From contig NZ_AUJB01000001.1 of NCBI RefSeq assembly GCF_000424005.1, forward strand, positions 62,001-126,000: DNA of 64,000 nt, in the 5' to 3' direction. Origin of the DNA: Pseudobutyrivibrio ruminis CF1b. GTDB lineage: Bacteria; Bacillota; Clostridia; Lachnospirales; Lachnospiraceae. The notes under the pieces are model-generated. The model worked only from the letters and a program-made list of their open reading frames with translations, was not told the DNA's origin and did no database searches. Both the position numbers and the translations under genes were made by a program. Shown here piece by piece: positions 41,049-63,824 of the stretch (position 1 is its first letter; the number at the start of each line of letters is the position of its first letter).

Positions 41049-42179
41049 TTATAAAGCTTTTAATCCACACTTATATAGGTTAATAGTTCTAGCCACAACA
41101 TCGTCCCAGTTATACTTGCTGAGTACATAATCTGCAGCCTGCTCCTTATAAGCATGAACCTCATTCTTATCATCTAAGAGCTGAACAAGCTTCTCCTTTA
41201 AGTCATCAACATCTCCCTTTTTGAAGGTGATACCTTTATCAGCAACAACACCTGCAGTCTCGTTAATATCACTAACGAGGCAGCAGTTACCGTAGCTCAT
41301 AGCCTCGAGAAGAGAAATAGGCATTCCCTCAACATCACTAGGAAGAACATAGAGATAAGCATTTGAGTAAAGCTCCTCTAAAATCTGACCCTGCTGGAAT
41401 CCAAGTAACATGATTCTGTCATCTTCTCTGGCAGCCTTTTTAATCTTAGAAACATAATCGTTACTATGACTAGTACCACCAACAATTACAAGCTTCTTAT
41501 CTGTATGAATCTGCTTGTAAGCTTTAATTAAATAGTGAAGACCTTTCTCAGGAACTATTCGAGCAAGGAATAAAATATATTCATCCTTCTTTAAACCGAA
41601 CTGCTCTGTAATCTCCTGAGCCTCAAGGATTTCTGGCTTTCCAATTCCGTTAGGAATAAGTGTAGCTTCTCTGCCGTACTTTTCCTTAAAGAACTTTTTA
41701 TTGCCTTCTGAAAGAACGATTAACTCATCTGCGTACTTTGCAGCACATTTTTCGCCAAACTCAAGATATCTTGTAGCGAAACCGCCCCACTTAGCTCTCT
41801 GGCTGTCAATACCGTGAATAGTAGCAACAGTACGAATACCCAGAAGATGTGGAAGCCAAAGCATCGCACAAGGGCCTGAAGCATGAAAATGAATTACATC
41901 ATAATGATGGAATACAGCATGCAATGTAGCCAAAACTGAGTAGATAGTTGCATTAAGGCTCTTTTTCTCAGATGTTGGAACAGTGATAATGTGAATGCCC
42001 TTATACATCTTTCCAACCTGTGTGTCGTTCTCCGCACCAGAAACATGATGGCCAGCTCTATTGTATGCATATACCTCATGTCCTTCTGCTACCATCTTTG
42101 AAGCTAATTCTTCAACAACTATTTCAATTCCACCCTCTCTGGAAGGAATACGCTTATGACCGATCATTGCGATTTTCAT
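41049..42179 (-). CDS. Glycosyltransferase family 4 (DUF1972/rhamnosyltransferase-like start)
   Basis: A 376-residue GT-B enzyme. The start, KIAMIGHKRIPSREGGIEIV, resembles the GT4 subgroup that includes capsule rhamnosyl- and galactosyltransferases. HFHASGPCAMLWLPHLLG, TLIPNGIGKPEILE, YILFLARIVPEKGLHYLIKAY and the E-x7-E block EGMPISLLEAMSYGN complete the family set. It lies at the head of the glycosyltransferase series just after the Wzz/kinase/surface-protein genes. In many Gram-positive loci the second sugar enzyme sits here; that order is only suggestive. Confidence 0.92.
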   Translation of the reverse strand: MKIAMIGHKRIPSREGGIEIVVEELASKMVAEGHEVYAYNRAGHHVSGAENDTQVGKMYKGIHIITVPTSEKKSLNATIYSVLATLHAVFHHYDVIHFHASGPCAMLWLPHLLGIRTVATIHGIDSQRAKWGGFATRYLEFGEKCAAKYADELIVLSEGNKKFFKEKYGREATLIPNGIGKPEILEAQEITEQFGLKKDEYILFLARIVPEKGLHYLIKAYKQIHTDKKLVIVGGTSHSNDYVSKIKKAAREDDRIMLLGFQQGQILEELYSNAYLYVLPSDVEGMPISLLEAMSYGNCCLVSDINETAGVVADKGITFKKGDVDDLKEKLVQLLDDKNEVHAYKEQAADYVLSKYNWDDVVARTINLYKCGLKAL

Positions 42180-48507: not shown

Positions 48508-50565
48508 ATGGCAAAAGCACCTAAAAAGCTGATTAGTGTATTAATTACATCATTGTTCTTATGTTTTTTGCTTAGCTATACTCTAACACATAGAATAATT
48601 GATGATATTATTACTCCTACAGGAAATGATTTTGAAGCTTTTTTCTATGTATTCGACCCGAATGATACTGATGCCGAAATTGACATAGATTCTTGTATAT
48701 ATGTTGGTGAAGGAACTGTATCTGAAGCAAATGATATATTTGATGATCCTGAATCACTTTCAGCTCTAATTACTTCAGCTCCTGATTATTCTGACCTTAT
48801 TGGCGATAATGATTACATTGAATGGAACACTCTTTACACTGAAGATGGAGAGATTTATGTCATAGGCTTACTCCTGCATGATGAAGAACCAATCAATCCT
48901 GACATTGAAATTGCTGATGTTTTCTCTGATATTATTGCTTTGAAACGTAGTAATTTACCTGAGGGAAGCTATGTCCGTACAGAGGGCTATTACCACGCTG
49001 GTGATGGTGGCGGCGCAACATATATTATCTCTTCTACGACTAAAAAAGCTGATAACATTTTTATTCTAGAACTAAAAAACGGCTTAAAAGCAGAACTGGA
49101 CTATGATGATGAGATTAATGTAGCACAAGCTGGAATTCAAAGTGGTGACTATATTTCCGATAAGTTTAACGAACTCATAGCAAAAGCTGAGTCGTATGGA
49201 ATACAGACCGTTAGATTTAATGACGGTACATATACATTAAATAAACCTATTTCACTAAAATCCCTCAATTATATAGGTACTGGTAAGACAAAACTCTCTG
49301 TAAGTGAAAATTTCCAAACTGGCGATGATAAAATCATGTATACATATCCAGATTCATTGCACAGTGTCTACTCTTTATCTTTTGAGAATATAGATTTTGT
49401 TATTAACGTTTCAAAATCATTTTCTCAGATTAATAAAGAAATGATTTTTGTTTCACTTCAAGAGATTGATGGATGTGACATTATAAATTGTGGATTTTAT
49501 GCATATCCAGCTTCAACAAATGGTGCATTCAGTAAAATAGATTTACTTTGGTTTAAGCATAGCTCAAGAATCGATAATGTAAACATTGATCATTGTATAT
49601 TTAAAAATTATACCGGAAAAGCATATGTCGGAAGCCCACGAGACCATTTGGTTGGAGCCTGCATCTGGATATGCGGATCAGCAAATACAACTGACTTACC
49701 AATGAATAATATATCAATTACAAATTGTGAGTTCGTTTCCACTGTTAGTGACGAAACAATAGCTATTTGGCGCGGACATTATGATCAGCTAACTATTGAT
49801 AATTGTACTTTTGCTAACACTACACAGGATTGTGATAATGTCATCGCTTTATATAAGGGTAGTTTCACAAATACCAATATTGATAATTGTAAATTTTCTT
49901 TATATTCAGGCTGTAAGTTTATTTGCAAAGTCACAAGCCTAACCGGTGATTCTGATGTTTCATTTGATAATGATACATTTAACCTCAATTCCGGTATAAC
50001 AGATACATCATCTAGAAACATAAATGTATTCTTCACAAGTGCCGATGATTCTGAGGGTCCTGGACTATGCTCTGCAAATATAGATGTATCTAATTGTGTT
50101 GTAAATTCAAAAAATGGCACAAAATACAGATCATTTCTTAGTATAGCTAATACAGCCGGAAAAACTTATAACGTAACTGAAAGTAATATTAACACGCCAT
50201 TATCCTCAGGATTATTTGTTTTAAATGGTTCTGACAATGAAGTTACAGTTGAAGAATCTAATATAAATACTTCCGATATTCTTAGTACCTTAGATTCAGT
50301 GGAAGATTGTCGAGTTATTATAAATAATAATACTATAGAGAATAAATTAAATAACGTCGTACGTTCTTCTGCTGACGTTGATTATGAATTTACTAATAAC
50401 ACATGTACATCTTCTGTATATGGAACTCAATTTGTTGGTTCTGGCCTTTCTTCAAATGATGAAATTCGCTTGAAGAATTCTAATAACATCTTTACTACAA
50501 ATGCTAAGTTATACGAGTATCATGGTGGCAACTTAAAAGCTTCAGATATCATCGTAAAGAATTAA
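48508..50565 (+). CDS. Secreted right-handed beta-helix protein (second paralogue)
   Basis: A 685-residue exported paralogue of the preceding gene. After a signal/anchor segment (LISVLITSLFLCFLLSYTL) it has an acidic N-terminal region of about 120 residues, longer than in the first copy. The shared parts then align throughout: VRTEGYYHAGDGGGATYI, VRFNDGTYTLNKPISLKSLN, LLWFKHSSRIDNVNI, ITNCEFVSTVSDE, DNCTFANTTQDCDN and the same end motif, LKASDIIVK. AAAGGAGAGA precedes the ATG. Synonymous differences are many, so the duplication is not recent. Role as for its neighbour: an extracellular polymer-binding or modifying protein, unproven. Confidence 0.85.
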   Translation: MAKAPKKLISVLITSLFLCFLLSYTLTHRIIDDIITPTGNDFEAFFYVFDPNDTDAEIDIDSCIYVGEGTVSEANDIFDDPESLSALITSAPDYSDLIGDNDYIEWNTLYTEDGEIYVIGLLLHDEEPINPDIEIADVFSDIIALKRSNLPEGSYVRTEGYYHAGDGGGATYIISSTTKKADNIFILELKNGLKAELDYDDEINVAQAGIQSGDYISDKFNELIAKAESYGIQTVRFNDGTYTLNKPISLKSLNYIGTGKTKLSVSENFQTGDDKIMYTYPDSLHSVYSLSFENIDFVINVSKSFSQINKEMIFVSLQEIDGCDIINCGFYAYPASTNGAFSKIDLLWFKHSSRIDNVNIDHCIFKNYTGKAYVGSPRDHLVGACIWICGSANTTDLPMNNISITNCEFVSTVSDETIAIWRGHYDQLTIDNCTFANTTQDCDNVIALYKGSFTNTNIDNCKFSLYSGCKFICKVTSLTGDSDVSFDNDTFNLNSGITDTSSRNINVFFTSADDSEGPGLCSANIDVSNCVVNSKNGTKYRSFLSIANTAGKTYNVTESNINTPLSSGLFVLNGSDNEVTVEESNINTSDILSTLDSVEDCRVIINNNTIENKLNNVVRSSADVDYEFTNNTCTSSVYGTQFVGSGLSSNDEIRLKNSNNIFTTNAKLYEYHGGNLKASDIIVKN

Positions 50566-50627: not shown

Positions 50628-52073
50628 TTATTTTCTTAATTTTTTCATCAATGTACCTGATATTTCAACCAGAATCTGTTTATTAACAAACCAACAGTAC
50701 AAAACTGATAATATAAGATATGTTAATCCTCCTGAAAATACTTTTACTACGATTCTAAGGAAATCCGAAGATATCCCATCTAGAAGCGATAATGTGAGAA
50801 TCATAATAATTCCTATTCCAAGAAAACCTGATACCTTCACCAATTTCTTAAATGTATGCATATCTTTATTTGCAGCAACTAACTGAACAACACACACAAA
50901 GACTTCCGTACATATAGTTCCTATAGTAGCACCTAATACTCCACATTTTGGTATTAATAGAAAATTTATTACAAAATTAATCAATGCGCCGCCAATCAAA
51001 GTTCTAGCAAAAAAAGTATCTTTACCATTAGGCAAAACATACTGCGTTTTAGCTACATTTGCATAAGCAGAAAACGGTAAAGTTATAGCCAACCCCTTCA
51101 TAACTGTTATACTCGGATCATATCCTTTACCAAAAAATAAAGGTACAAAGTCAGAAGCAACTCCAAAAGCACCGCAGGCACATCCAATAGAAATAAATCC
51201 AATTACAAATAATGATTTATCAAAATACCTGTTAATAGATTCTTCGTCTCCTTGAGCTTTTAGATTAGATACTCGAGGTAACATTACAACACCTAATGCA
51301 TTGATAAGTCCTAAACAAAGAACAATAATTTTTTCGCCTGAATCATAAAAACCTACAGATGAACTGTCTTTTAGATTCATAAGCATAATCTTATCCATAT
51401 ATTTGTAAAGCATTACCGCAATCGCAGGTAAAAATAAAACAAATAATGGCTTAATATGAACTAGACAATCCTTAATATTTACTCTTTGTAATTTAACATA
51501 TTTTTGGGTACCAACCCATAAAATGGCATAATTTACAAAAATACCAATTGCAATAATTCCAACATAAATAGGTAAATCTGCCTTATCCCTAACTAACAGA
51601 AATACAAGAGCAACATTTAGTAGTTTTAGAATAGAATTCTTAGTAATTACCTTTTTGAACTCTTCTAAGCCAAAATACAACCAGTTTATATCAAAAACTA
51701 CACCAAGTACAACAAACGATTGGATAAAGAAAACAAGCTTATTTTCTTTAACTACAAATACACAATAAAGTAGAAATATAATATAAACAATCGCCGCAAA
51801 CAAAAAATGAATAGTAAATAGTTGTGAAAATTGCTTATTCAATTCCTCCCTATTATCTTTTGTCTTTGCTATTAATCTACTACCATAGTTTTCTATTCCT
51901 AAAGCAGCTACTATCGCAAAATATGATGTGACCGCGTAAGAATAACTATTGATACCAACATTTTCAGGTCCCAGAACACGCGAAATGTATGGTGCAGTGA
52001 ATAGCGGGGTAATAATTATTAATATCTGATATAAAACCTGTAGTATAAAATTTTTCTTTAAACTAGTCTTCAT
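50628..52073 (-). CDS. Oligosaccharide flippase, Wzx type
   Basis: A 481-residue membrane protein with 12-14 hydrophobic segments. The start (NFILQVLYQILIIITPLFTAPYISRVLGPENVGINSY has the P-Y-[IL]-[ST]-R-x-L-G block of polysaccharide-transport proteins) and the FYDSGEKIIVLCLGLINALG segment are typical of the Wzx/MATE-like flippases that move undecaprenyl-linked repeat units outward. It is the last gene of the distal minus-strand block and starts 4 bp after the pyruvyltransferase fusion gene. It would feed the Wzy-like polymerases encoded on either side. Confidence 0.92.
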   Translation of the reverse strand: MKTSLKKNFILQVLYQILIIITPLFTAPYISRVLGPENVGINSYSYAVTSYFAIVAALGIENYGSRLIAKTKDNREELNKQFSQLFTIHFLFAAIVYIIFLLYCVFVVKENKLVFFIQSFVVLGVVFDINWLYFGLEEFKKVITKNSILKLLNVALVFLLVRDKADLPIYVGIIAIGIFVNYAILWVGTQKYVKLQRVNIKDCLVHIKPLFVLFLPAIAVMLYKYMDKIMLMNLKDSSSVGFYDSGEKIIVLCLGLINALGVVMLPRVSNLKAQGDEESINRYFDKSLFVIGFISIGCACGAFGVASDFVPLFFGKGYDPSITVMKGLAITLPFSAYANVAKTQYVLPNGKDTFFARTLIGGALINFVINFLLIPKCGVLGATIGTICTEVFVCVVQLVAANKDMHTFKKLVKVSGFLGIGIIMILTLSLLDGISSDFLRIVVKVFSGGLTYLILSVLYCWFVNKQILVEISGTLMKKLRK

Positions 52074-52077
52074 TTTT

Positions 52078-54297
52078 TCACTTCACAATTCTTTGAATTT
52101 TTCTATATATCTTTTTGATAAGATTAACTTCTACATACTTCCTAAATAAGTTTTCAAAATCTATATTTTTTTCTTTATCAAAAGACTTTTTGTCCAATGG
52201 TCTGTCGACCCCATGATTGTATGACGAATTTATTTTTATTGCATCTTCAAAGCTAACTTCTTGAAATCTTCTCATCTTTGATTTTATTGATGCTAGCATC
52301 TCTTCTCCCTTTTGGGAATGAGTGATAACCATGGATGTACCAGTATTATCATGATCTTTAATACCCCAAAAATCAGCCAAAGTTATATCACTCTTGCGTT
52401 CTTCTTTTCGTGCAACGCAATTGTCATAACAAGAAGGTCTAAGAATATAATTTCTCAAGAATAAACTAAAATATACATTTTCTCTGCATATTTCAGTTAT
52501 TTCGCTGCCATCCTCAAATATCACTTTTATACTAAAAGGACTCCAACCATTGTCCTTGTTTCTATAATAAAACTCCTTAATAGTTTTATTATATTTCTTT
52601 GTTAAGTACTCACGATATAAATCAAAATATTTCTTTGATGATGCACCATGGCATATTAAATCCTGAGTATATAAATTCTCATATTCTTTTCCAAGATAAG
52701 CTTTAAGTGCTGATATCTGGCAAGGGGTTCCCGTGAACAAAACCTTTTGCCCATTATCTAAAGCAACCTTAACCTCTGGATATGATTGCCATGCCTTACT
52801 TTGAATATACTTTGAGCCTAAAGCCTTTTTCAAATCCTGTTTGGAAGTAACGGCATGATGTGCAAGTGTAAAAGTTTCATCAAAATAAGGAGAAAAAACT
52901 ACTCCACCATTTTCAATAAATTCAGATGCTAACTCGTTAAAAATCCCACCAGATGAAGATTTCATTCGAATTGCATCATCTGCATTTTCCATAGCATATG
53001 CCTTATGTACTATATTATTTTTTAAAGACTCAGAATCAACATTATATTGAGGACAAGTGCGTTTACATTTCCCACAGTTAATGCATAACTCCTTCGATAT
53101 TTGCGGATAATAAAATCCATCGACTTCCACCATATGAATAGCATTGGTCGGACAAGCTGCTGCACAAGCGCCACATCCAACGCATTCATCCTCAGGTAAA
53201 TCTATAGAATTATTTTTTTTTTCTGTTGCTTTGCGTAAATAATCTAAAGAGCGAATCCTCTCAGTCTCAATTCTTTCATCCACACCTGAATAGTCAATTT
53301 TTGAGATTTCAGGGAAATTATTTTCTTCTACAAAACGTTCTATCTTTCCAGCTATGCCAAGCAATGTCTTTACTCGACTGCCTTGCTTTTGTTTCCCGTT
53401 ACTACCACTTCCATATCTAGGGAAAGTTAAGAAATCCTTATGGAAAACCAATGAAAATACTGTTCCATGGAATGAATCTGTAAAGAAAAATTCACTATTA
53501 TGAATCATATACAAAAATTCATTCGGTGAAATTGTATACCAGTCTGGCTGAGTCAAATCATTAAGATTTACAATCTCACAATTGTTATCGTCAGCATATT
53601 TCTTTATACCGGCTGCAACCTCAGCACTTGGCTTTGTTAAGAAATATGTAAGAACATATTTCTTAGGACAATTCTTTGGCTTGTTTTCAAAAGTATTCCA
53701 GTCTTCTTTATGTAATAGAAGTGTAGGATCAACAACAACTTGAATGTCTCTTCCTATTTCTCTAGTTAAATAATCTGCTGCAGCATTCTCTCGAACTGCA
53801 ATAGCATCCATAGCTTGTATGCATCTACAGAATTCTTCATACCTATCTTCTGGAACACTCTCTACCCCCATACTTGCAGCATAGGATATTTTCTGAGCAT
53901 TTTTATGTGCTTTATAAGCAGTTGTTAGCTCAATATTTGGAACATAATAAGGATTCCAAATCTGATCACTACCACAAACAAATAAATCATAATCGTCCGC
54001 TTTACTCAATGTATCATTAGAGAGTATTTCTGGTGAGAAATTTAAAAATTTCTTATTAAACTCATTAAATACTTTAAGTTTTCTTTTTTCGCAAACGTAC
54101 TGTTTTCTTTTTGTTAAAATCATTTTGACACTGTGCTTGAATCTACCAAACTCACTCACACCTGCCAATGAATAATTATTCATAGTAACCACTTCAGCGT
54201 CAGCATGCATTCCTTCTAAAGCTTTTAGCAAAGCATAGTTTTGAAGCTTGTTACCATAATTAGCACCATCTGTAATGGTTATAATTCCAATTTTCAT
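52078..54297 (-). CDS. Polysaccharide pyruvyltransferase fused to an FrhB-like iron-sulfur protein
   Basis: A 739-residue two-part protein. Residues ~1-345 match the polysaccharide pyruvyl transferase family: [32 protein letters not shown] and [15 protein letters not shown]. Residues ~366-415 hold two ferredoxin-type clusters ([12 protein letters not shown] and [12 protein letters not shown]). Residues ~430-700 match the coenzyme F420 hydrogenase/dehydrogenase beta-subunit (FrhB) fold: [42 protein letters not shown] and [11 protein letters not shown]. No frameshift was seen between the parts. The first half should add a pyruvyl ketal or a related group to a sugar. The second half is a redox module whose partner in polysaccharide loci is not established. 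Confidence 0.9.
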
Positions 54298-54458
54298 AAA
54301 TTACCTTACCTAATTTTCCAAATACTCGCTTACAAGTTCCTCAAGCGTATTAAACGTATTTACCTCATGATTAATTTTTCGAGTTGGTGTCTAGCGTAAT
54401 ATGCTTGATGATTCTTTTTTACTAATACTTTTTTCTTAATATTCTCTACTAAAACAAT

Positions 54459-55679
54459 TTATGCTTCCGACTCCTTTTCTAAATATCCAAGAGAAAGCAA
54501 AATATAATACATCAATCCACCTACTGCATTAGAGCACTCACTACTATACCTACTAAAAATAATAATTGCTGCTCCAGTTAGTGCTGATATTACTGCAAAA
54601 TGATCTGCATCTTTTTTAAAGATCTTCAAAAAAGCATGTAATGGAAGTAGATAATATATTATTGTTCCAACTATTCCACCATAATAAAACAGTTTTGCAT
54701 ATGTAAAATAGTGAACATTATATTCAGTAACTAAAGCCGTCTCATCCGATATGAATCCATGCCCAAATATAGTCATCAATTTTGACTTATTAAACATATA
54801 TTCATAAATAAATGAGTAACCATTCGTTCGAGTAACATTAAAAGTCTTTCCTGCATACCCCGAATCTAGATATGCTTGTACGCCTTCTTTACTGAAAAAG
54901 ACTGCAAATCCAGGGTAAATTCTAATGAACACGAAATATCCGACCACTAAAATCACGCCCAAAACAACAGCTAAAACCAAGGACTTAAAAAACTGTTTTG
55001 ATAAGAGCATATACACAAAAAAAGCTAATACTAATTCAAAATAGTAAATTTTTAACTCTGCTATAGCAGCTGTAACCATTGCTAATAATATTACAGCAAA
55101 GAACATATGTATCTTAATCTTGTTTTTCAAGAATCCAGAAATAAAAACAATTGTACAAAGCAAAAGGAAGGCGTGTAAACATGTATTACTATAGCCAAAA
55201 TATGTACCAAATAAACCGCCAACATTATCCGCGTCACCCATTTTAAAATACTCAATCACGGAAAGTATTGTATGCAGAACCAACAATGAAAAAATAAATT
55301 TATAAATATTTTTCCTAATTACTTCTGCATCTAAAAATAAAATAGTTCCAGCAAACGCTGCATAACCAACTAAATATTGTCTAAAAAAGTACTCTGCGGC
55401 ATAAATATCCCTATGCACAAATGCTGTAAAAATAATATAACCCTGAAATAAAATAATAGGAATCGCCCATCTAGGAAGATGTATAATAGTTCTCTTGGCT
55501 GTTTCAAAAGTAACCATTCTGAATAAAACGCTAGCCATTGTTAAGTATGCAAGCACATATATAATGTATCTTGTAGCTTCTGGAAATCCTAACATCGATG
55601 AAAGGAAGTCCGCTATAAATGACATTACTATCATTGCTATCATTGTTATTTTTCCGAAATTTTTTACTTTTAAATACAT
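54459..55679 (-). CDS. Second Wzy/O-antigen-ligase-like membrane protein
   Basis: A 406-residue membrane protein with about eleven hydrophobic segments and a loop between residues ~285 and 330 (FNVTRTNGYSFIYEYMFNKS, then IFGHGFISDE and YNVHYFTYAKLFYYGGIVG). The pattern matches the polymerase/ligase superfamily, but the motifs are weaker than in the protein at 45027. It is possibly a polymerase for a second glycan or an inactive relative. It starts 14 bp after the GT2 gene. The 160 bp downstream, to the pyruvyltransferase fusion, hold no gene or clear terminator. Confidence 0.75.
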   Translation of the reverse strand: MYLKVKNFGKITMIAMIVMSFIADFLSSMLGFPEATRYIIYVLAYLTMASVLFRMVTFETAKRTIIHLPRWAIPIILFQGYIIFTAFVHRDIYAAEYFFRQYLVGYAAFAGTILFLDAEVIRKNIYKFIFSLLVLHTILSVIEYFKMGDADNVGGLFGTYFGYSNTCLHAFLLLCTIVFISGFLKNKIKIHMFFAVILLAMVTAAIAELKIYYFELVLAFFVYMLLSKQFFKSLVLAVVLGVILVVGYFVFIRIYPGFAVFFSKEGVQAYLDSGYAGKTFNVTRTNGYSFIYEYMFNKSKLMTIFGHGFISDETALVTEYNVHYFTYAKLFYYGGIVGTIIYYLLPLHAFLKIFKKDADHFAVISALTGAAIIIFSRYSSECSNAVGGLMYYILLSLGYLEKESEA

Positions 55680-55693
55680 AAATTATTCACCTA

Positions 55694-56701
55694 TTACGAC
55701 ACTTTCCCTAAAAGCATACATCCTAATATTAGCCTGTATTTCATAAAAACCATAAACACTCTTTGTTTAAACGGAAGCAACTTGTAAGGATATGTACTTT
55801 CTACTTCTCTCAACATCTTATCATTAAGAATTCTCTTGACAGCAATATAGTCTTTGTTAAATTCCTTTAGATTTGTTTCTTTTGAAATTCTTATAATCGC
55901 ATTACGAAGTCGCTTAATAAGAAATCTATTAAGTTCAAGCTTATAATCGCCTCTAGGATTAACTCCTAGAACTTCATTAATTTTATTGTACAACTTAATT
56001 TCGTTTTCAATGTCAAAATGTAATTTTGAATGTGTCATTGAATCCTCATTTTCACAATGTCGATACAATTCATCCATAACATATATAGCATTGTTACAAT
56101 GATTCAAATATTCTAGATTAAAAATCAAATCTTCAGAACCAATGACTCGTTCAGACATAAACGCCAAACCATTATCCTCTATAATACTCTTCTTATATAA
56201 GCCTCGCCATACAGCCGACCCATATAAATAATCTGCCTTATGATTTGGTTTAGATCCTACTTCTCCAACTAATAAATCCCAAATGTTATCTCTATTAAAG
56301 ATCTTAATCTCTCCAGTTTTAACTGGTATACTTTTTTCGTTGGTATGCAAACAATAAGCAATATCATATGTATCTGAAACTGATTCTATAAGTTTTTCAT
56401 ACATATCAGGCTCAACATAATCATCTGCATCACAAAAACCTAAGAATTCACCATTCGCTTTAGAAATACCATAATTGCGTGCAATTCCAGCACCCTCATT
56501 ATCTTTCGAATAAAACTTAACTCTTGAATCTTGCTTAGCGTACTCTTCGCATACTATAGCGCTTTTATCCTTTGATGAATCATTCACTAAAACAATCTCA
56601 ATATCTTTATAAGTCTGATTCAATAAACTCTCGATACATCTAGGCAAATATTTTTCAGCATTGTATACCGGTATAATAATAGAAATCAATTTTTCTTTCA
56701 C
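55694..56701 (-). CDS. Glycosyltransferase family 2
   Basis: A 335-residue GT-A enzyme: LISIIIPVYNAEKYLPRCIES, IVLVNDSSKDKSAIV, GAGIARNYGISKANG, FLGFCDADDYVEPD and RVIGSEDLIFNLEYL. The GTG at 56701 is chosen as start because GAGGA lies 7 nt ahead and the protein then begins directly before the first strand; an upstream TTG/ATG pair would overlap the ribosome site. It lies 27 bp after the free-standing FrhB-like gene. Confidence 0.92.
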   Translation of the reverse strand: MKEKLISIIIPVYNAEKYLPRCIESLLNQTYKDIEIVLVNDSSKDKSAIVCEEYAKQDSRVKFYSKDNEGAGIARNYGISKANGEFLGFCDADDYVEPDMYEKLIESVSDTYDIAYCLHTNEKSIPVKTGEIKIFNRDNIWDLLVGEVGSKPNHKADYLYGSAVWRGLYKKSIIEDNGLAFMSERVIGSEDLIFNLEYLNHCNNAIYVMDELYRHCENEDSMTHSKLHFDIENEIKLYNKINEVLGVNPRGDYKLELNRFLIKRLRNAIIRISKETNLKEFNKDYIAVKRILNDKMLREVESTYPYKLLPFKQRVFMVFMKYRLILGCMLLGKVS

Positions 56702-56728
56702 AAAAATGTCCTCGTACATCAAATTTTA

Positions 56729-57832
56729 TTAATGAACTAAGCCAAGCTTGATAAGCACAAGCTTTACGTCCTGCTTTAAACAATTTGATTTATATTGATT
56801 AAATATAATATGATTAAAACTCTTCTTTTTTATCAACTCAAAAAATGCGCTTCTATTTTTGCGTATACTCATAGGTCTTGATAACTGTTCATTATTATTA
56901 ACAGCATTCTCAACATCTACTGGGAGTAATTCAATATCAGCATTTTTTAACATTTGCTCTCCCTTTTCGGTCTGAACAACCATTAATGATACGCCTTTAC
57001 GAATCTCTTCTGCGTCAACTTTTGTTCCCCATGAGTCTCCAATAGTAATATCAGATATTCTTTCTCTAGAAGCATATTTGCATGAATAGCAATTTGATGT
57101 ATAGGTAAGACCATCTAAAAATGCAATTGTATATTTATCAGAAACACCTTTACATACAATTCCTTTATCATCGACTACTAACTGCATTTTTGTTTTTAAT
57201 CTAAATTTTATATCTTTTATAGTCTTTAATGATTTTGAGTATTGTTTTAAGAATAATTCTAAAATCTTAGGTGATGGTGTTCCATGGCAAATCAAATCAA
57301 CTGTATAAAGCCTATCTTGATACTGGGCACCAACATAGGCTTTTACTGCAGCAATTTGGCATGGTAATCCAATAAACAAGACTTTATTTCCAGCCTTTAA
57401 TACTTCCAATACTTTTGGATATATCCCCACTGGGTTGCTCTTAACGTATTTAGAACCGCCAAACTTTAGTGCCTGTTCATAATCATTAGTAATATCAAAA
57501 TAAAAATCTCCGTCCTTAAATAGACAGCTGCACACATAGCCTCCATCCTTAATGAACTGCTTGGCTAACGCCATTCCTATTCCGCCAGAAGGAGCTTTAC
57601 TTCTGTATTCATCATCCCTATTCCACCCCTGGTACCAAGAAATTGGTGAAATTTTTTCTGGGGTGTTATTCTGTGGGCACTTCTTATGACAAGCATTACA
57701 ATTAACACACTTATCCTCATCAATTACAGCATTATAAGAGACCATATTATCCTCAATATGAATGGCCTCTTTCTTACATACATCTATACATAACATGCAT
57801 CCAGCACATTTATCAATATCACAAACCGTCAT
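56729..57832 (-). CDS. FrhB-like iron-sulfur flavoprotein (F420 hydrogenase/dehydrogenase beta subunit family)
   Basis: A 367-residue cytosolic redox protein. Residues 1-52 carry two 4Fe-4S sites (CAGCMLCIDVCKK and CVNCNACHKKCP). The FrhB-type domain follows: APSGGIGMALAKQFI, LFIGLPCQIAAVKAYVG, VDLICHGTPSPKILE, SCKYASRERISDITIGDSWG. Family members reduce or oxidise F420 or flavin-linked substrates; relatives in polysaccharide loci have no settled reaction, and Lachnospiraceae are not known as F420 producers. It is a paralogue of the C-terminal half of the protein at 52078. A GGGAG site precedes the ATG. Confidence 0.9.
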   Translation of the reverse strand: MTVCDIDKCAGCMLCIDVCKKEAIHIEDNMVSYNAVIDEDKCVNCNACHKKCPQNNTPEKISPISWYQGWNRDDEYRSKAPSGGIGMALAKQFIKDGGYVCSCLFKDGDFYFDITNDYEQALKFGGSKYVKSNPVGIYPKVLEVLKAGNKVLFIGLPCQIAAVKAYVGAQYQDRLYTVDLICHGTPSPKILELFLKQYSKSLKTIKDIKFRLKTKMQLVVDDKGIVCKGVSDKYTIAFLDGLTYTSNCYSCKYASRERISDITIGDSWGTKVDAEEIRKGVSLMVVQTEKGEQMLKNADIELLPVDVENAVNNNEQLSRPMSIRKNRSAFFELIKKKSFNHIIFNQYKSNCLKQDVKLVLIKLGLVH

Positions 57833-57870
57833 TAAAATGCTCCCTATATAAAATCCTTCGACTATAGCTA

Positions 57871-57901
57871 GAAAGAATACTTAAAACCTAAGTATTCTTT
57901 C
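57871..57901 (-). terminator. Hairpin between the radical SAM and FrhB-like genes
   Basis: A perfect 13-bp stem, GAAAGAATACTTA (57871-57883) with 57889-57901, and a 5-nt loop. On the minus strand only a short CTTTC tail follows, so it is a weak terminator or an RNA-processing or stabilising element in the 92-bp gap after the radical SAM gene. Confidence 0.5.
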
Positions 57902-57924
57902 CATAGCAAGTCTATATAATATAA

Positions 57925-59097
57925 TTATTTGTTCATCTGTGCTGCGATATCAGCATCTACGATTTCTTCACCAGTCTTATCCTTAAGCTGCTCCATTGAA
58001 GCTGCTGAAAGACCGTTGTTTACTGTAGCACACATATCACATGTAGAGCACTTATCAAGATCTTCCTTTGAAACCTTACCATCGCGGAGATCACGAACGA
58101 TCTTGTTCTCATACATGCTGTACTTCTTCTTTGTCCAGAACTTAGCCTTGTGACGGATTACCCACCAGAGTGGTACCCAAATGTACTTGTGCATTGCTGG
58201 TGAAACTGAACCAATCATCCAGCAATCTCTGTCACAGCATCTAACCTTTGAACGAACCTTTTCTGCCTCTGGAGAATTCCAAAGCTCATCCCATGTCTGG
58301 TTGTTAAGGTTACCCATAACCTCTTTATCCTTTGTACCGTTACATGGCATTACATCACCGTATGGATCGATGAAGAATGTATCAAATGACATATCACATG
58401 GAAGAAGTCTCTTCTGACCATAAATGTAGTTGATAAGTCCGTGGTTGAAGTAAGCTCTGAACCACTTCTTAGGGCTCTTGCTTGCAAGAAGCTCGTTAAC
58501 AAGGTTCTCAAAGTTCTGAGCAACCATTGGACGATCCTTGATAATGTTCTTTGCCTCTACGAAATAGAAGCTGTTGTGAAGAGATGCTGTAGCAAACTCC
58601 ATACCCATCTCATCTGAAAGCTTGTAAAGAGGTACAAGATCTGGAGCGTTCATATCCTGAACTGTCATACCAAATCCAACGTCTGTCATACCCATCTCGC
58701 GAAGTTTCTTAAGTGTCTGGTAACCTCTCTGGAAACCATTATCAAGACCTCTGATCTTGTTATTTGTCTCCTCAAGTCCCTCGATTGAAATACGAATACC
58801 AATCTGTGGGAACTCCTTACAAAGATCTACGATACGGTCTGTGAAGAAACCGTTTGTAGAAATAACGATACGATCTGACTTCTTATAAAGCTCACGTACG
58901 ATATCCTTGATATCTGTTCTGATGAAAGGCTCACCGCCTGTGATGTTTGTAAAGTACATCTTAGGAAGCTTCTTGATTGTCTCGATTGAAATCTCTTCCT
59001 CAGGCTTAGATGGTGCCTTGTATCTGTTGCACATAGAGCAACGTGCGTTACATCTGTAAGTTACGATTACGGTTCCGTTTAATTTCTTCTCAGCCAT
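57925..59097 (-). CDS. Radical SAM protein with SPASM-like C-terminal domain
   Basis: A 390-residue cytosolic enzyme. The SAM-binding cluster motif is CNARCSMC near residue 14, followed by TNITGGEPFIRTDI and VISTNGFFTDRI. The C-terminal part has SPASM-like cysteines: CDMSFDTFFIDPYGDVMPC, then RCCDRDCW and CSTCDMC, enough for one or two auxiliary clusters. SPASM proteins modify peptides or, in aminoglycoside-type pathways, oxidise or dehydrate sugars. In this setting, beside pyruvyltransferases and FrhB-like proteins, sugar oxidation or epimerisation is a reasonable guess. Codon use is more balanced and GC-richer than its flanks. GGAG lies 7-8 nt before the ATG. Confidence 0.92.
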   Translation of the reverse strand: MAEKKLNGTVIVTYRCNARCSMCNRYKAPSKPEEEISIETIKKLPKMYFTNITGGEPFIRTDIKDIVRELYKKSDRIVISTNGFFTDRIVDLCKEFPQIGIRISIEGLEETNNKIRGLDNGFQRGYQTLKKLREMGMTDVGFGMTVQDMNAPDLVPLYKLSDEMGMEFATASLHNSFYFVEAKNIIKDRPMVAQNFENLVNELLASKSPKKWFRAYFNHGLINYIYGQKRLLPCDMSFDTFFIDPYGDVMPCNGTKDKEVMGNLNNQTWDELWNSPEAEKVRSKVRCCDRDCWMIGSVSPAMHKYIWVPLWWVIRHKAKFWTKKKYSMYENKIVRDLRDGKVSKEDLDKCSTCDMCATVNNGLSAASMEQLKDKTGEEIVDADIAAQMNK

Positions 59098-59108
59098 TTT
59101 TTAACTCC

Positions 59109-60317
59109 TTATACTTCATAAATCTTTAATAATTTCTCTAAATATTCATCAATTGTATCAAAGCTAAGCTCTTTACAATTGTTGTGCATTGTTTTTGCTT
59201 TGTTATCATCCTGCCAAATTGTGTGGATAGCGTCGCAAAGCTGATCTACATCTCCGCTTTCATATAAAAGACCAGTCTCACCTACCTTGATAAGCTCTGG
59301 GATTCCACCGATATTTGCACCAATTACTGGTGTTCCATACATCTGTGACTCCATAACAGAGAATGGGCAGTTCTCATACCACTCTGATGAGTATACTGAC
59401 ATCTTAGCCTTGCGAATAAGATTTGCCAAATCATCTCCACTCTGGAAACCTACATTCTTGATGTTATCAACACCATTAAGTAAATCCTCAAGAGGTCCTT
59501 TACCTGCGAAAATGAAGTTTACCTCAGGCATTCTCTTTGCTGCCTCGATAAGGGTACGAATACCCTTTTCCTCTGAATATCTACCGAAGTAAAGAACATA
59601 ATCTTCCTTTTCAGCCTCTACCCAAGGAATAGACTCAATAAAGTTGTGAATAGCAACTGTCTTTTTAGCAAAAAGAGGATTGCTATCAAGCTTGCTCTTC
59701 ATGAACTCACTACAGCAGATAAACTTATCAATGTATTTGTATGTTCCCTTGAGCTTCCAGAATGTAGCCTCAAGTGTACCGATAAAGCTCTTAGCTGTGC
59801 TTCCGTGAATACATTTGCCTTTTGTACAATTCATGAATTTACCAGATAAACACTTTTCACAGTTTTCATGAGTGTTTGGATTGTTGCACATATGATTAGG
59901 GCAAACAAGCTGATAATCATGGGCTGTAAATACGATTCTGCAATCATGCCCTGTCTGCTTTCTCCATTTAACAATCTCTAAAATCATAGATGGTGTGAGC
60001 TGATAATTGAAATTGTTCAAATGAATAACATCTGGCTGAAAATCATCCAAAACTAATCTAATCTTCTGACGTGCCTCCTTAGAATAAATAGTCTTCAAAG
60101 GATATGTCATCTTTTCAAACTTACTAGCGTCATGAAAATCCATATCTGATGTATAAGCATTCACTCTGTTGCCAACGCAACGACCTTCATGCTCCATACC
60201 GAAATACTGAACTTCATGTCCCTTAGCCATTAAAGCTTCTCCAAGCTTGAAGATATATGTTTCTGAACCCCCGTTAGGGTACAGAAATTTGTTAACCATA
60301 AGTACTTTCATAATCAT
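59109..60317 (-). CDS. Glycosyltransferase family 4
   Basis: A 402-residue GT-B enzyme: KVLMVNKFLYPNGGSETYIF, then HDYQLVCPNHMCNNPNTHEN with a Cys-rich insert typical of one GT4 subgroup (CEKCLSGKFMNCTKGKC), YVLYFGRYSEEKGIRTLIEA and the E-x7-E region CPFSVMESQMYGTPV. The first ATG (60317) and a second two codons in (60311) are both possible; AGGGAG lies 4 or 10 nt ahead. It starts just after the GT gene at 60330 and leads into the radical SAM gene (11 bp), with the same GC-richer look. Confidence 0.92.
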   Translation of the reverse strand: MIMKVLMVNKFLYPNGGSETYIFKLGEALMAKGHEVQYFGMEHEGRCVGNRVNAYTSDMDFHDASKFEKMTYPLKTIYSKEARQKIRLVLDDFQPDVIHLNNFNYQLTPSMILEIVKWRKQTGHDCRIVFTAHDYQLVCPNHMCNNPNTHENCEKCLSGKFMNCTKGKCIHGSTAKSFIGTLEATFWKLKGTYKYIDKFICCSEFMKSKLDSNPLFAKKTVAIHNFIESIPWVEAEKEDYVLYFGRYSEEKGIRTLIEAAKRMPEVNFIFAGKGPLEDLLNGVDNIKNVGFQSGDDLANLIRKAKMSVYSSEWYENCPFSVMESQMYGTPVIGANIGGIPELIKVGETGLLYESGDVDQLCDAIHTIWQDDNKAKTMHNNCKELSFDTIDEYLEKLLKIYEV

Positions 60318-60329
60318 AATTCTCCCTAT

Positions 60330-61349
60330 TTATTTAAGATAGGCTGCAACATTTTTGCCCATTGCATATCGTGAAAATTTATCAATAAATGTTTCTCTAG
60401 CGCTTTTTCCTATACTATTTTGAGTATCGCCTTGAAGATGTTCGTTTATGATATGGCGTGTTTGTTCAACATCTTTATTAATTAAAATAGCATCGACTTT
60501 ATCTGTAACATACATTTCCGATAATGTGCTTGGATGTGTAACAAATATAGTTTTAGCTAAAGACATTGCAGTCAACAAGACAGTGTCACCCGAACAAATT
60601 GTCACGTCATCTATAGGGATAATCAGTGCAGCACAATTGCTAATCCAAGGATACTGCTCTTCTCCACTTACATCATTAATAAGTGTCACGTTTTTAGGTA
60701 AATCCTGTCTCTTATATTCATCAGAAATAATGACTAAATCTGTTTCGATTTCTCGCCATACATCAACAAGAAAATCATAATCCCTATTCGATCTACCAAT
60801 AGATAAAACATACTTATCTGAAGGAGCTCGATTTGGAAATTCCAAATTGCCATACTGGTCCATTTTATCGTCAATTCCAAATGGTGCAACTACAAATTTT
60901 TCAATTGGAATATTAAACTCTTCCGATGTTATTTTTGCATAGTTTGGAGATGGGACATGAAGATAATCAATATACTCTGTGCAAATACATTTTTTCATGT
61001 ACCATTTGTATATTTTACCCACAAACCCACTTTTTTTCTTGTATGTAAAATTCACCGCAAAAACTTTGTTGACTTTTTTTACATGGAATAAAGCACACCA
61101 AAAACAAAAGTTTAACGCATAAAATTGCTGCCATCCCACCAAATAATCATATTCTTTTCTGTGTCGAAAAATTGTAAATGGAACACTAAAATACTTAAAA
61201 TATCTTCCCAAATTACTAAATCGACTAGTTCTACCACCATTAGATATAACTGAGTAACATTCAATATCCACACCCTCAGATCTTATGGCGTTTATAAATT
61301 CATTCAATTCTTCTTTTACACAATCAGCAAGAACCAGATTTCTACCCAT
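60330..61349 (-). CDS. Putative GT-B glycosyltransferase
   Basis: A 339-residue soluble protein with a GT-B-like layout: a variable N-terminal half with aromatic- and Lys-rich segments (FTYKKKSGFVGKIYKWYMK) that could touch the membrane, then FVVAPFGIDDKMDQYG, YVLSIGRSNRDYDFLVDVW, the nucleotide-sugar side CAALIIPIDDVTICSGDTVLLTAMSLA, and a tail. It resembles GT4 enzymes but lacks the classic E-x7-E, showing D-x(n)-D/T in its place. The ATG at 61349 is preferred over a preceding TTG, with AGAGGA upstream. Activity is likely but specificity unknown. Confidence 0.8.
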   Translation of the reverse strand: MGRNLVLADCVKEELNEFINAIRSEGVDIECYSVISNGGRTSRFSNLGRYFKYFSVPFTIFRHRKEYDYLVGWQQFYALNFCFWCALFHVKKVNKVFAVNFTYKKKSGFVGKIYKWYMKKCICTEYIDYLHVPSPNYAKITSEEFNIPIEKFVVAPFGIDDKMDQYGNLEFPNRAPSDKYVLSIGRSNRDYDFLVDVWREIETDLVIISDEYKRQDLPKNVTLINDVSGEEQYPWISNCAALIIPIDDVTICSGDTVLLTAMSLAKTIFVTHPSTLSEMYVTDKVDAILINKDVEQTRHIINEHLQGDTQNSIGKSARETFIDKFSRYAMGKNVAAYLK

Positions 61350-61385
61350 CAAAAATATCCTCTCTGCAATTTCGTAAATTATTAA

Positions 61386-62489
61386 TTATTCTTCAATAAT
61401 CTTTTTCAGTATATCTAAGCTTTCTTTTCTCTGCTCGGCAATAATTTTATTAACACTTGAGAAATCAATTTTTTTCATAGCCAAATCTAAATCATTCTCA
61501 TCTCTAAGAATTCTATCAGTGAGACCAGTTAATTCAAGGATACTCATATTTCTTGTACCAGTCTTATTATTTGGTAATATTTCCACAAATGGTGTATTAA
61601 AATTGATTGCAAAAGCTGTTCCATGGAACGAATCAGTAATTACGCATTCAGCATTGTCGAAATATGAAAGGAACTCTCCCATATTGAAACAAATTTTAAG
61701 TTTTCCAGGCATTCTAATATAATGAAATGCCGCACCAATTCTAATGATTGGCAATCCAGTCTTTTCACTAAGCTTTAAGGCATACTCACCAAGCTTTTCA
61801 TCATTATTAATCTGATAAATAAGAATATATTTCTTTTTTGAGATTGGCTTAAAATATTTCTGCCAATGACTTCTATCTAATAGTAATGTTGGGTCTAAAA
61901 CCTGATTCACATCAAATCCCATTGACTTTACAATTTCAGCCGCACTATTTTCCCTTACAGTAATATGACTATATCTTTTCAAGTTATTTTTATAAAACTG
62001 AAAAACCTTATCTGTCATTTCAGTTCTACCAAAACTAGATGCATATGATATCACCTTGTCAGAACCATCTGTAAAACTCAAGAAATATGTATCATCATAT
62101 TCTCCATTCTCAACTGGTCCCCAAACCTGATCACTACCAGTCATAAAGACATCAGCGCGAGGTTTGTCGTTCATCAATTCAGCTTTATCTGAATATCGTT
62201 TACTCATATGTAATAGTCTCTCACGCTCTTTTTCAAAGCCTCTACCTGCGATACAGCTCTGAGGTTGTCTTAAAAGCAAATAAATAAATCTCTTAATCGG
62301 ATTACTATTCCACTCTGGCTTTCTTTTAATTGAAAACTTCTCACGGTTTTTATAATGCTCATCGTATCTAATGTAATCAATTATCTCAGCTTCATGGCCC
62401 AACGACTCGATTACATCCTGAGTCGCAAGCGCTTGAAGTAATGAGCCGTAATTGATAATTGCATGTCTTGTAATTACACCTATTTTCAT
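61386..62489 (-). CDS. Polysaccharide pyruvyltransferase family protein
   Basis: A 367-residue protein of the polysaccharide pyruvyl transferase family: GVITRHAIINYGSLLQALATQ, ADVFMTGSDQVWGP, VLDPTLLLDRSHW and AECVITDSFHGTAFAINF. The family uses phosphoenolpyruvate to form pyruvyl ketals on sugars; some members act as glycosyltransferase-like enzymes instead. It is a free-standing counterpart of the N-terminal half of the fusion at 52078. A good promoter and a dyad lie 50-90 bp upstream, so it begins a transcript. The ribosome site AGGAG is unusually far (about 15 nt) from the ATG, but the start is fixed by the family's N-terminal motif. Confidence 0.92.
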   Translation of the reverse strand: MKIGVITRHAIINYGSLLQALATQDVIESLGHEAEIIDYIRYDEHYKNREKFSIKRKPEWNSNPIKRFIYLLLRQPQSCIAGRGFEKERERLLHMSKRYSDKAELMNDKPRADVFMTGSDQVWGPVENGEYDDTYFLSFTDGSDKVISYASSFGRTEMTDKVFQFYKNNLKRYSHITVRENSAAEIVKSMGFDVNQVLDPTLLLDRSHWQKYFKPISKKKYILIYQINNDEKLGEYALKLSEKTGLPIIRIGAAFHYIRMPGKLKICFNMGEFLSYFDNAECVITDSFHGTAFAINFNTPFVEILPNNKTGTRNMSILELTGLTDRILRDENDLDLAMKKIDFSSVNKIIAEQRKESLDILKKIIEE

Positions 62490-62757: not shown

Positions 62758-63804
62758 TTAATCAACTGCTAAAGCACTATATTTCTTTAGTAAAGAAATC
62801 ATCCATACAACAAATATATGCGTAATATATGCAAGAACACATGTCACGATTAAGCATACTATTATAAATATTCCTGATGATAATTTCCCATTTGTGATTG
62901 AATCCACTATTATGAATACTTTTTGATGTAATAAATAAATCTCAAATGATATCTCCCCCAAGAAATTACTAATTTTATTACCGTATTTTAATTTAACATT
63001 CGAAATTAGCACAAACAGCGTAATACTAAATCCTAGTAAAATTTTTAATAAATAGTCTCCATAAAATGGAACATATTTAAATTGCAGATAAAAACCACCT
63101 AATATAATACCTGCAACAAAGCTTGCCCCCATTTTTGCAATCCATTTTTCTCTAAAAAAATTATAAAACGCTGAAGCAGACCAAGCTAATAGGATTCCCC
63201 AAATAAATCCAAAAATTTCTGTAGACCACACTGTTTTTGTGTATTTACCAGTAAATTGCATTAAATAAAAACATAAACTAAAAACTGCAATAGATATACA
63301 AATTACTAAATTACATAAAATCGGCTTCTTTGATAGGAGAATATGTGAAATCCAGAAAAAAATATAACAAGCAATCATCCACCTAACCCAAATGTCAATT
63401 TCAAAGATTGAAATCCAACTCATCTTGCCGTCAGCTATAACCCACATTGTCAACATATATATAATATTGGTTACCCAGCAGGTAATAAATAGTTTCGGCA
63501 ATCGTTTCCGCCAAAAACTTTTTATCAAATTATTTCTTTTGTTCATCGCCAAGGTCAATCCATAGGACGATGTCAAAAAGAAAAATGTCACTCCAATAAA
63601 ACCAAAAGACGATATCAAATCCTGAATTATATTGCCGTGCACGCTAGGAACATGCACCATTACAACCACAAGACACCAAAAGCCTCTCATTGCGTTAGAG
63701 TTATTCTTGTCAAAAAAATTTGACTCCACATTAACAACTGCAGCTTTAGAAGTAATCAAATACATCAAAAAGACTACAATCAAAAACATCATTAGTATAT
63801 CCAT
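62758..63804 (-). CDS. Membrane acyltransferase, acyltransferase-3 family
   Basis: A 348-residue integral membrane protein with about ten hydrophobic segments. The family's first block is NAMRGFWCLVVVMVHVPSVHG with its His, then FGFIGVTFFFLTSSYGLTLA; ISFEIYLLHQKVFI near the end is the usual C-terminal block. The ATG at 63804 is chosen over a TTG two codons earlier, with AAGGAT upstream. It would O-acylate a sugar of the polymer. It is separated from the downstream operon by a hairpin and a promoter, so it may belong to a unit that starts beyond the window. Confidence 0.88.
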   Translation of the reverse strand: MDILMMFLIVVFLMYLITSKAAVVNVESNFFDKNNSNAMRGFWCLVVVMVHVPSVHGNIIQDLISSFGFIGVTFFFLTSSYGLTLAMNKRNNLIKSFWRKRLPKLFITCWVTNIIYMLTMWVIADGKMSWISIFEIDIWVRWMIACYIFFWISHILLSKKPILCNLVICISIAVFSLCFYLMQFTGKYTKTVWSTEIFGFIWGILLAWSASAFYNFFREKWIAKMGASFVAGIILGGFYLQFKYVPFYGDYLLKILLGFSITLFVLISNVKLKYGNKISNFLGEISFEIYLLHQKVFIIVDSITNGKLSSGIFIIVCLIVTCVLAYITHIFVVWMISLLKKYSALAVD

Positions 63805-63824
63805 TATCAATCATCCTTACTACA

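Follow-up and report, generated by a model that had tools for sequence, protein, structure and literature searches.

The closest described relatives of the proteins considered here are the ketal-pyruvyltransferases CsaB, WcaK and Pvg1p, which belong to Pfam family PF04230, and the FrhB/FdhB proteins, a family of flavin/iron-sulfur (Fe-S) oxidoreductases. A third point of comparison is the pair MurA and MurB, in which enolpyruvyl transfer from phosphoenolpyruvate (PEP) is followed by flavin-dependent reduction to the lactyl ether of muramic acid. Lactyl (1-carboxyethyl) ethers are also known from O-antigens (PMC10609480) and from capsules (PMC7246685). The locus described here combines PF04230 and FrhB domains with a radical SAM/SPASM protein (rSAM) in one exopolysaccharide (EPS) operon of Pseudobutyrivibrio ruminis CF1b. 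It occupies 52,078–62,489 of a stretch of 64,000 nucleotides (assembly GCF_000424005.1, contig NZ_AUJB01000001.1, positions 62,001 to 126,000), which is referred to as the window and whose numbering is used throughout. The host genome assembly is 3.27 Mb and 99.98% complete.

Organisation of the locus and proposed function

All of the genes named in the original prediction were found where it placed them, on the minus strand. It had listed two FrhB-like and two pyruvyltransferase-family proteins; two domains of each kind are indeed present, although one pair is fused in a single 739-aa protein (52078..54297; Pfam PF04230 8.9e-32, two Fer4 domains, and FrhB N and C domains, the latter at 8.3e-19). 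In this fusion the PF04230 domain is N-terminal (residues 13–292) and is followed by two [4Fe-4S] sites and the FrhB domain (residues 434–674). The second pair consists of a stand-alone FrhB with ferredoxin-type Fer4 matches (56729..57832, 1.1e-25) and a stand-alone PF04230 protein (61386..62489, 1.7e-38). The two PF04230 copies score 111.5 and 133.6 bits against a cut-off of 25.3. The rSAM gene (57925..59097) encodes 390 aa with Radical_SAM (2.7e-18) and SPASM (6.2e-11) matches. A third FrhB copy in the host genome is a fusion of the reverse order on another contig.

We tentatively favour, at slightly under even confidence, a reading in which this Wzx/Wzy-type EPS operon holds two separable sugar-modifying units: unit A, the PF04230 and FrhB proteins, making lactyl ethers, and unit B, the rSAM protein. 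What we infer in it is how the two units work chemically, that ferredoxin is the electron donor and that the acceptor is lipid-linked. The PF04230 protein would transfer an (enol)pyruvyl group from PEP onto a sugar hydroxyl, probably of the lipid-linked repeat unit. Reduction of this group to a 1-carboxyethyl (lactyl) ether would follow, catalysed by the FrhB flavin/Fe-S protein with electrons from ferredoxin and not from F420. The stand-alone proteins are proposed to act as transferase (61386..62489) and reductase (56729..57832), and the fusion as a self-contained transferase/reductase.

The overall logic would be that of MurA followed by MurB, carried out by unrelated proteins. The likeness lies in this proposed logic only, and unit A would differ in using a lipid-linked glycan as acceptor. 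No match to the MurA or MurB families was found by Pfam (E 0.001) among the ten locus proteins scanned. Lactyl ethers themselves are not new; what is proposed as new is their assignment to PF04230 and FrhB proteins doing MurA/MurB-like work. No paper assigning genes to lactyl ethers was met among open-licence PMC papers, the literature covered, so that this absence is a weak one; the words 'lactyl' and 'reductase' each occur 0 times in the review PMC6801904. If the assignment is right, genes in EPS loci that are annotated as 'coenzyme F420 hydrogenase' would gain a function open to testing, and sequence could be used to predict lactyl sugars.

Linkage and fusion of FrhB with PF04230

Co-occurrence was analysed in a family sample: 150 genomes from the family to which the window belongs (Lachnospiraceae), one per genus. 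FrhB_C was present in 52 of them and PF04230 in 82. After two of the 69 listed FrhB genes that fell under the curated cut-off were dropped, 67 remained. A PF04230 gene lay within 3 kb of 49 of these and within 10 kb of 57, always on the same strand. Viewed from the other side, 61/142 PF04230 genes had an FrhB within 10 kb. The two domains were also fused in both orders: PF04230-FrhB in the window and in one further locus (L067), and FrhB-PF04230 on the other host contig (C13). FrhB and PF04230 are thus coupled, and the co-occurrence statistics that the original prediction had suggested as a check brought out this link.

The same association was seen around rSAM genes. These loci were the best 80 of at least 577 stretches encoding an rSAM relative (tblastn, E 1e-3), and their FrhB, PF04230, glycosyltransferase (GT), AT3 and Wzx labels come from our own profiles, built from the window proteins, and not from Pfam. 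PF04230 was present in all 24 rSAM loci that carry FrhB; L059, which at first seemed to hold FrhB alone, was a miss of our profile, as Pfam finds PF04230 there. Relatives of the stand-alone PF04230 protein (~60% identity) lay just downstream of rSAM in L099, in L120 and in L077, where the gene is split into two ORFs; FrhB came after them in L077 and L099. The nearest relatives of the stand-alone FrhB were close to rSAM in L073, L077 and L099.

One locus (L271, 1278–4265) encodes a 995-aa ORF in which PF04230 parts flank FrhB on both sides, and another PF04230 gene follows it.

The PEP site of the PF04230 proteins

The PEP site of CsaB consists of R148, H308 and K328, and R306 is a PEP contact predicted by docking, according to PMC10435577. 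The corresponding columns were located through E. coli WcaK and by spacing (the Lys lies 20 residues from the His in both), CsaB itself lying outside the alignment. The comparison covered 138 of the 142 family hits, four weak or broken ones having been dropped. The H308 column is His in 135/138 proteins, and the R148 column is Arg in 51/51 rows (46 distinct). The R306 column divides the family into a class with S/T (73/138), a class with Arg (58) and 7 others. The K328 column is K or R in all 131 proteins of the two main classes, with R rather than K in 55/73 of the window's class.

Both window copies read SFH at the R306/H308 position. They therefore resemble CsaB, WcaK and Pvg1p in Pfam family, in the PEP-site His, in a basic residue at the K328 column and in the R148-column Arg, but differ in having S/T at the R306 column and a flavin/Fe-S reductase as a coupled or fused partner. 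Since the PEP-site columns are kept and R306 is replaced, PEP use by the window's proteins is plausible as judged from these residues, and ketal closure is less certain.

Genes of the S/T class were linked to FrhB more often (42/73) than those of the Arg class (14/58; Fisher 1.7e-4, not corrected for relatedness). A division in which FrhB would go with the S/T class, and the Arg class would form plain ketals, was considered and dropped, because FrhB is also found paired with, and fused to, proteins of the Arg class; for the same reason the R306-column motif does not settle the chemistry.

Iron-sulfur motifs and the electron donor of FrhB

Two CX2CX2CX3C motifs were found in each FrhB, and 200 shuffles of the residues gave none (mean 0.0 per set). 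The rSAM protein has CX3CX2C plus its SPASM domain. The original prediction had counted at least five iron-sulfur sites in four genes; the number of sites was borne out, while only three genes carry them, as the stand-alone PF04230 protein (3 Cys) has no Fe-S motif. Four extra cysteines of the stand-alone FrhB (C158, C182, C248 and C251) are conserved in 23/23 aligned rows (21 distinct) and have by-eye counterparts in the fusion.

FrhB matches F420-reducing subunits and HCAR (5dqr), a reductase, by sequence and by fold. The fold match comes from the FrhB half of the fusion, which is confident in the AlphaFold2 model; the PF04230 half is poor. The window proteins share with the FrhB/FdhB family the Pfam domain, two ferredoxin clusters with a third Cys4 set, and the fold. 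They differ in lying in EPS loci with PF04230 and in a host without an F420 ligase match. The F420 ligase PF01996, the one F420-biosynthesis gene searched for, had no match in the host genome, and the same search was positive in M. jannaschii, H. volcanii and M. acetivorans. F420 is therefore an unlikely partner of FrhB here and ferredoxin a likelier donor, which makes the F420 link drawn in the original prediction improbable. HCAR reportedly cleaves a C-O bond reductively and BciB, an FrhB-type protein, is said to reduce a vinyl group, so that a fold of this kind might reduce enol ethers and ketals alike. An EPS of Butyrivibrio fibrisolvens is reported to contain 4-O-(1-carboxyethyl)-D-galactose.

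Comparison with lactyl capsules of Klebsiella

According to PMC4616057, four Klebsiella types (K8, K22, K37 and K66) have a pyruvyltransferase gene yet no pyruvate, and of the 1,515 cps genes two are nitroreductases and one is a coenzyme F420 hydrogenase. Among 77 rows of the K-antigen table of PMC6856556, O-lac appears in those of K22 and K37, in both cases on GlcA, and in that of K66, on Glc, but in no other. The K22 glycan contains 4-O-[(S)-1-carboxyethyl]-D-glucuronic acid according to a reference title in PMC7246685, where K22 and K37 are said to differ by O-acetyl. The three lactyl types are thus among the unexplained pyruvyltransferase types, and three reductase-type genes are available. 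The single F420-hydrogenase (FrhB) gene would belong to K66, an assignment to type that we infer; neither F420 nor nitroreductase is mentioned in the available portion of PMC5359410. As GlcA has no free 6-OH, a 4,6-ketal is not possible there, which would favour an enol ether that is then reduced as the simplest route. The likeness of the Klebsiella types to unit A thus lies in a lactyl ether accompanied by a pyruvyltransferase gene and no pyruvate, with a fitting number of reductase-type genes.

Lactyl ether or pyruvate ketal

Several observations weigh against a lactyl ether function for unit A. The probability of finding all three lactyl types among the four pyruvate-less types of 46 is 2.6e-4, but it was computed after the pattern had been seen. 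K22 and K37 are not independent, because most genes are common to both. Both would probably rely on a nitroreductase and not on FrhB, which would leave K66 as the one lactyl type with FrhB. K8, without pyruvate in PMC4616057, is given with Gal-pyr in the table of PMC6856556. Within the family itself, the Arg of CsaB and WcaK is replaced by S/T in the window's PF04230 proteins, and the Arg class pairs and fuses with FrhB likewise.

The linkage is also incomplete in both directions: no PF04230 was found within 20 kb of 10/67 FrhB genes, and no FrhB within 10 kb of 81/142 PF04230 genes. The latter figure would fit an alternative in which the pair makes ordinary cyclic pyruvate ketals and FrhB acts otherwise, for example by reducing another sugar or a nucleotide-activated alcohol. 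Some PF04230-less FrhB genes point the same way, since those of L263, L264 and L268 adjoin TagD-like nucleotidyltransferase ORFs (by eye), which suggests that the FrhB reductase family has further substrates. Five of the ten PF04230-less FrhB genes are at a contig end or in loci that resemble polysaccharide loci, and five are elsewhere; our profiles place L263, L268, L269 and L270 with GT or Wzx genes, in addition to L264 with its TagD-like ORF. Against the ketal alternative stand the fusions in both orders and the 57/67 linkage, which would be difficult to account for if the two proteins had no substrate in common, and we consider this alternative rather unlikely. For unit A, the best reading at present is that a pyruvyl group is reduced. 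The original prediction had a sugar or its pyruvyl group being altered, and it is the pyruvyl option that the FrhB-PF04230 coupling and the Klebsiella comparison would uphold, though not as the work of one four-gene pathway.

One module or two units

The rSAM gene was found in 15/150 genomes of the family sample and in 3/398 across a phylum sample, the window's own genome included. Only 4 of the 15 family carriers have FrhB within 20 kb of rSAM, and 62/67 FrhB genes have no rSAM within that distance. The view that all four genes form one redox module, a dedicated anaerobic pathway, is weakened by this loose linkage and we hold it to be very unlikely: FrhB is absent within 20 kb of rSAM in 11/15 genomes. 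Not all of the data are on the side of separation. PF04230 lies within 30 kb of rSAM in 12/15 carriers, and at genome level the carriers hold PF04230 in 14/15 cases (P 0.0017) and FrhB in 8/15 (P 0.09), which speaks against strict independence of the two units. Of the 80 rSAM loci, 33 are flanked by less than 9 kb on one side; among the other 47, FrhB was found in 20 and PF04230 in 26. The unit A pair lies close to rSAM in L066, L073, L077, L099 and L123.

Candidate function of the rSAM protein

In the reading with two units, rSAM would modify a sugar of the oligosaccharide built by the neighbouring glycosyltransferases. At least one GT gene was found in 77 of the 80 rSAM loci and at least two in 72. 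The GT4a cluster was present in 53 loci, GT4b in 38, AT3 in 48, Wzx in 48, PF04230 in 35 and FrhB in 24. In the window GT4b (59109..60317, -) is directly upstream of rSAM, and AT3, a membrane acyltransferase (62758..63810, -), and GT4a (41049..42179, -) lie further away; all three have Pfam matches or, for GT4a, a distant likeness to the beta-1,4-rhamnosyltransferase Cps2T (109 bits, cut-off 500). Across the 80 loci the commonest ORF immediately upstream of rSAM was AT3 (25), followed by other GTs (13), GT4b (12), other genes (10) and GT4a (9); in two loci it was on the opposite strand and in nine the rSAM ORF itself was not called.

The predicted structure of rSAM (pLDDT 72) matched SkfB (Z 18.4), BlsE (Z 18.1) and EpeE (Z 11.4), and because SkfB and BlsE tie, no reaction is implied by the fold search. 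With the sugar and nucleoside enzymes BlsE, DesII and BtrN (radical SAM/SPASM-like), rSAM shares the radical SAM fold and a C-terminal auxiliary domain; it differs by an identity of ~17% or less over the aligned part and by its place among polysaccharide assembly genes. Six cysteines outside the SAM cluster are invariant or near-invariant (C234, C252, C288, C292, C350 and C353).

The original prediction had allowed for a peptide-modifying enzyme with its precursor elsewhere. A role as a peptide (RiPP) maturase would agree with SkfB, SuiB and anSME being among the best fold and sequence matches, and with SPASM domains being common in peptide maturases. Within 2 kb of rSAM in 81 loci, more distant sites lying outside the search, no conserved small ORF was found that might encode a precursor: the 203 intergenic small ORFs in 44/81 loci gave a largest cluster of 7 loci, whose members resemble pieces of acyltransferase. 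In addition, none of the best 25 of 45 matched NCBIfam models reached its cut-off for rSAM. Together with the two or more GT genes in 72/80 loci, this makes a maturase highly improbable.

The most likely substrate of rSAM is a sugar in the oligosaccharide that its neighbours build; C5 epimerisation would be a guess. Such an epimerase, converting D-Gal to L-altrose or D-GlcA to L-iduronate by a logic that we take to be like that of NeoN, would be in keeping with the rSAM gene of B. fibrisolvens 16/4 (98% identity) and with the host genome having no match to the GlcA C5-epimerase PF06662. However, no strain was met with both a C5-inverted sugar and the rSAM gene, the structural similarity does not discriminate and no donor Cys was pinpointed, and we regard this specific reaction as unlikely. 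Less probable still is the most far-reaching combination, in which rSAM would be a gut- and rumen-spread radical epimerase or other radical enzyme on lipid-linked oligosaccharide, explaining L-altrose and L-iduronate in Butyrivibrio slime, beside PF04230 and FrhB proteins that had re-invented MurA/MurB chemistry for surface glycans.

Distribution and sequence constraint of rSAM

The best 80 rSAM loci were 85–98% identical to the window protein and came from Lachnospiraceae, Oscillospiraceae, Acetivibrio, Prevotella isolates and metagenome-assembled genomes (MAGs) of other groups, where contamination may lie behind some of the MAG or bin assignments. This range is trimmed at the bottom by the selection of the best 80, and the family sample is the unselected set. 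There, the other 14 carriers fell into two groups, eight at 83–94% and six at 68–76% identity, and the two further proteins of the phylum sample were 83 and 80% identical. The low-identity group (L042–L047) showed no match over the last 40–60 residues, which hold the CX2C pair C350/C353.

ValS, compared in 11 of 12 genomes, served as a yardstick for the hosts. In P. ruminis AD2017 rSAM is 98% and ValS 95% identical, and the ValS/rSAM values are 74/87% in Roseburia, 62/88% in Acetivibrio, 58/90% in Faecalibacterium, 46/87% in a Spirochaetales bin and 44/87% in Prevotella. Median amino acid identity of rSAM to the window was 87% in the 67 of 80 loci whose ORF clustered. In the same 67 loci fourfold third positions agreed at 31.5%, with 28.3% expected from base composition; in one Prevotella locus (L107) 19% was observed and 20% expected. 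As the synonymous sites are saturated, the spread of rSAM across phyla is not recent, and rSAM is under extreme constraint. The neighbouring GTs are less conserved, with medians of 70% for GT4b (43 sequences) and 57% for GT4a (62 sequences), a contrast that favours rSAM because the loci were chosen by it. The GT4 medians include the window's own copy and some duplicate loci (L050/L071 and L052/L087); the gene counts around rSAM come from the 80 loci alone. An identity of 87% in Prevotella and in a Spirochaetales bin, where ValS is at 44–46% and fourfold sites are at chance, makes rSAM an unexplained case.

The G+C content of the window is 0.40 between 58001 and 60000, which covers rSAM and most of GT4b, and 0.30–0.33 in the neighbouring 2-kb windows. 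This step, as a feature of base composition, is consistent with acquisition of the rSAM-GT4b segment from elsewhere.

Other features of the window

The remaining genes of the operon are on the minus strand. A Wzx-type flippase (50628..52073) and two GTs, the GT2 protein (55694..56722) and GT4b, were identified by Pfam, in agreement with the original prediction, which had placed the genes among GTs, Wzx and Wzy. The 406-aa Wzy-like membrane protein (54459..55679) has no Pfam match and owes its label to appearance and position only. A weak GT-like protein (60330..61352) matched PF13692 at 20.7 bits, under the cut-off of 27. On the strand opposite to the operon are two tandem ORFs that look alike by eye (46448–48340 and 48508–50565, +), the second of which had no NCBIfam match at E 1e-12. 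Finally, the N-terminal half of a 699-aa ORF (38943–41042, -) matches models of the GT4 type, and the C-terminal half matches those of the GT2 type.

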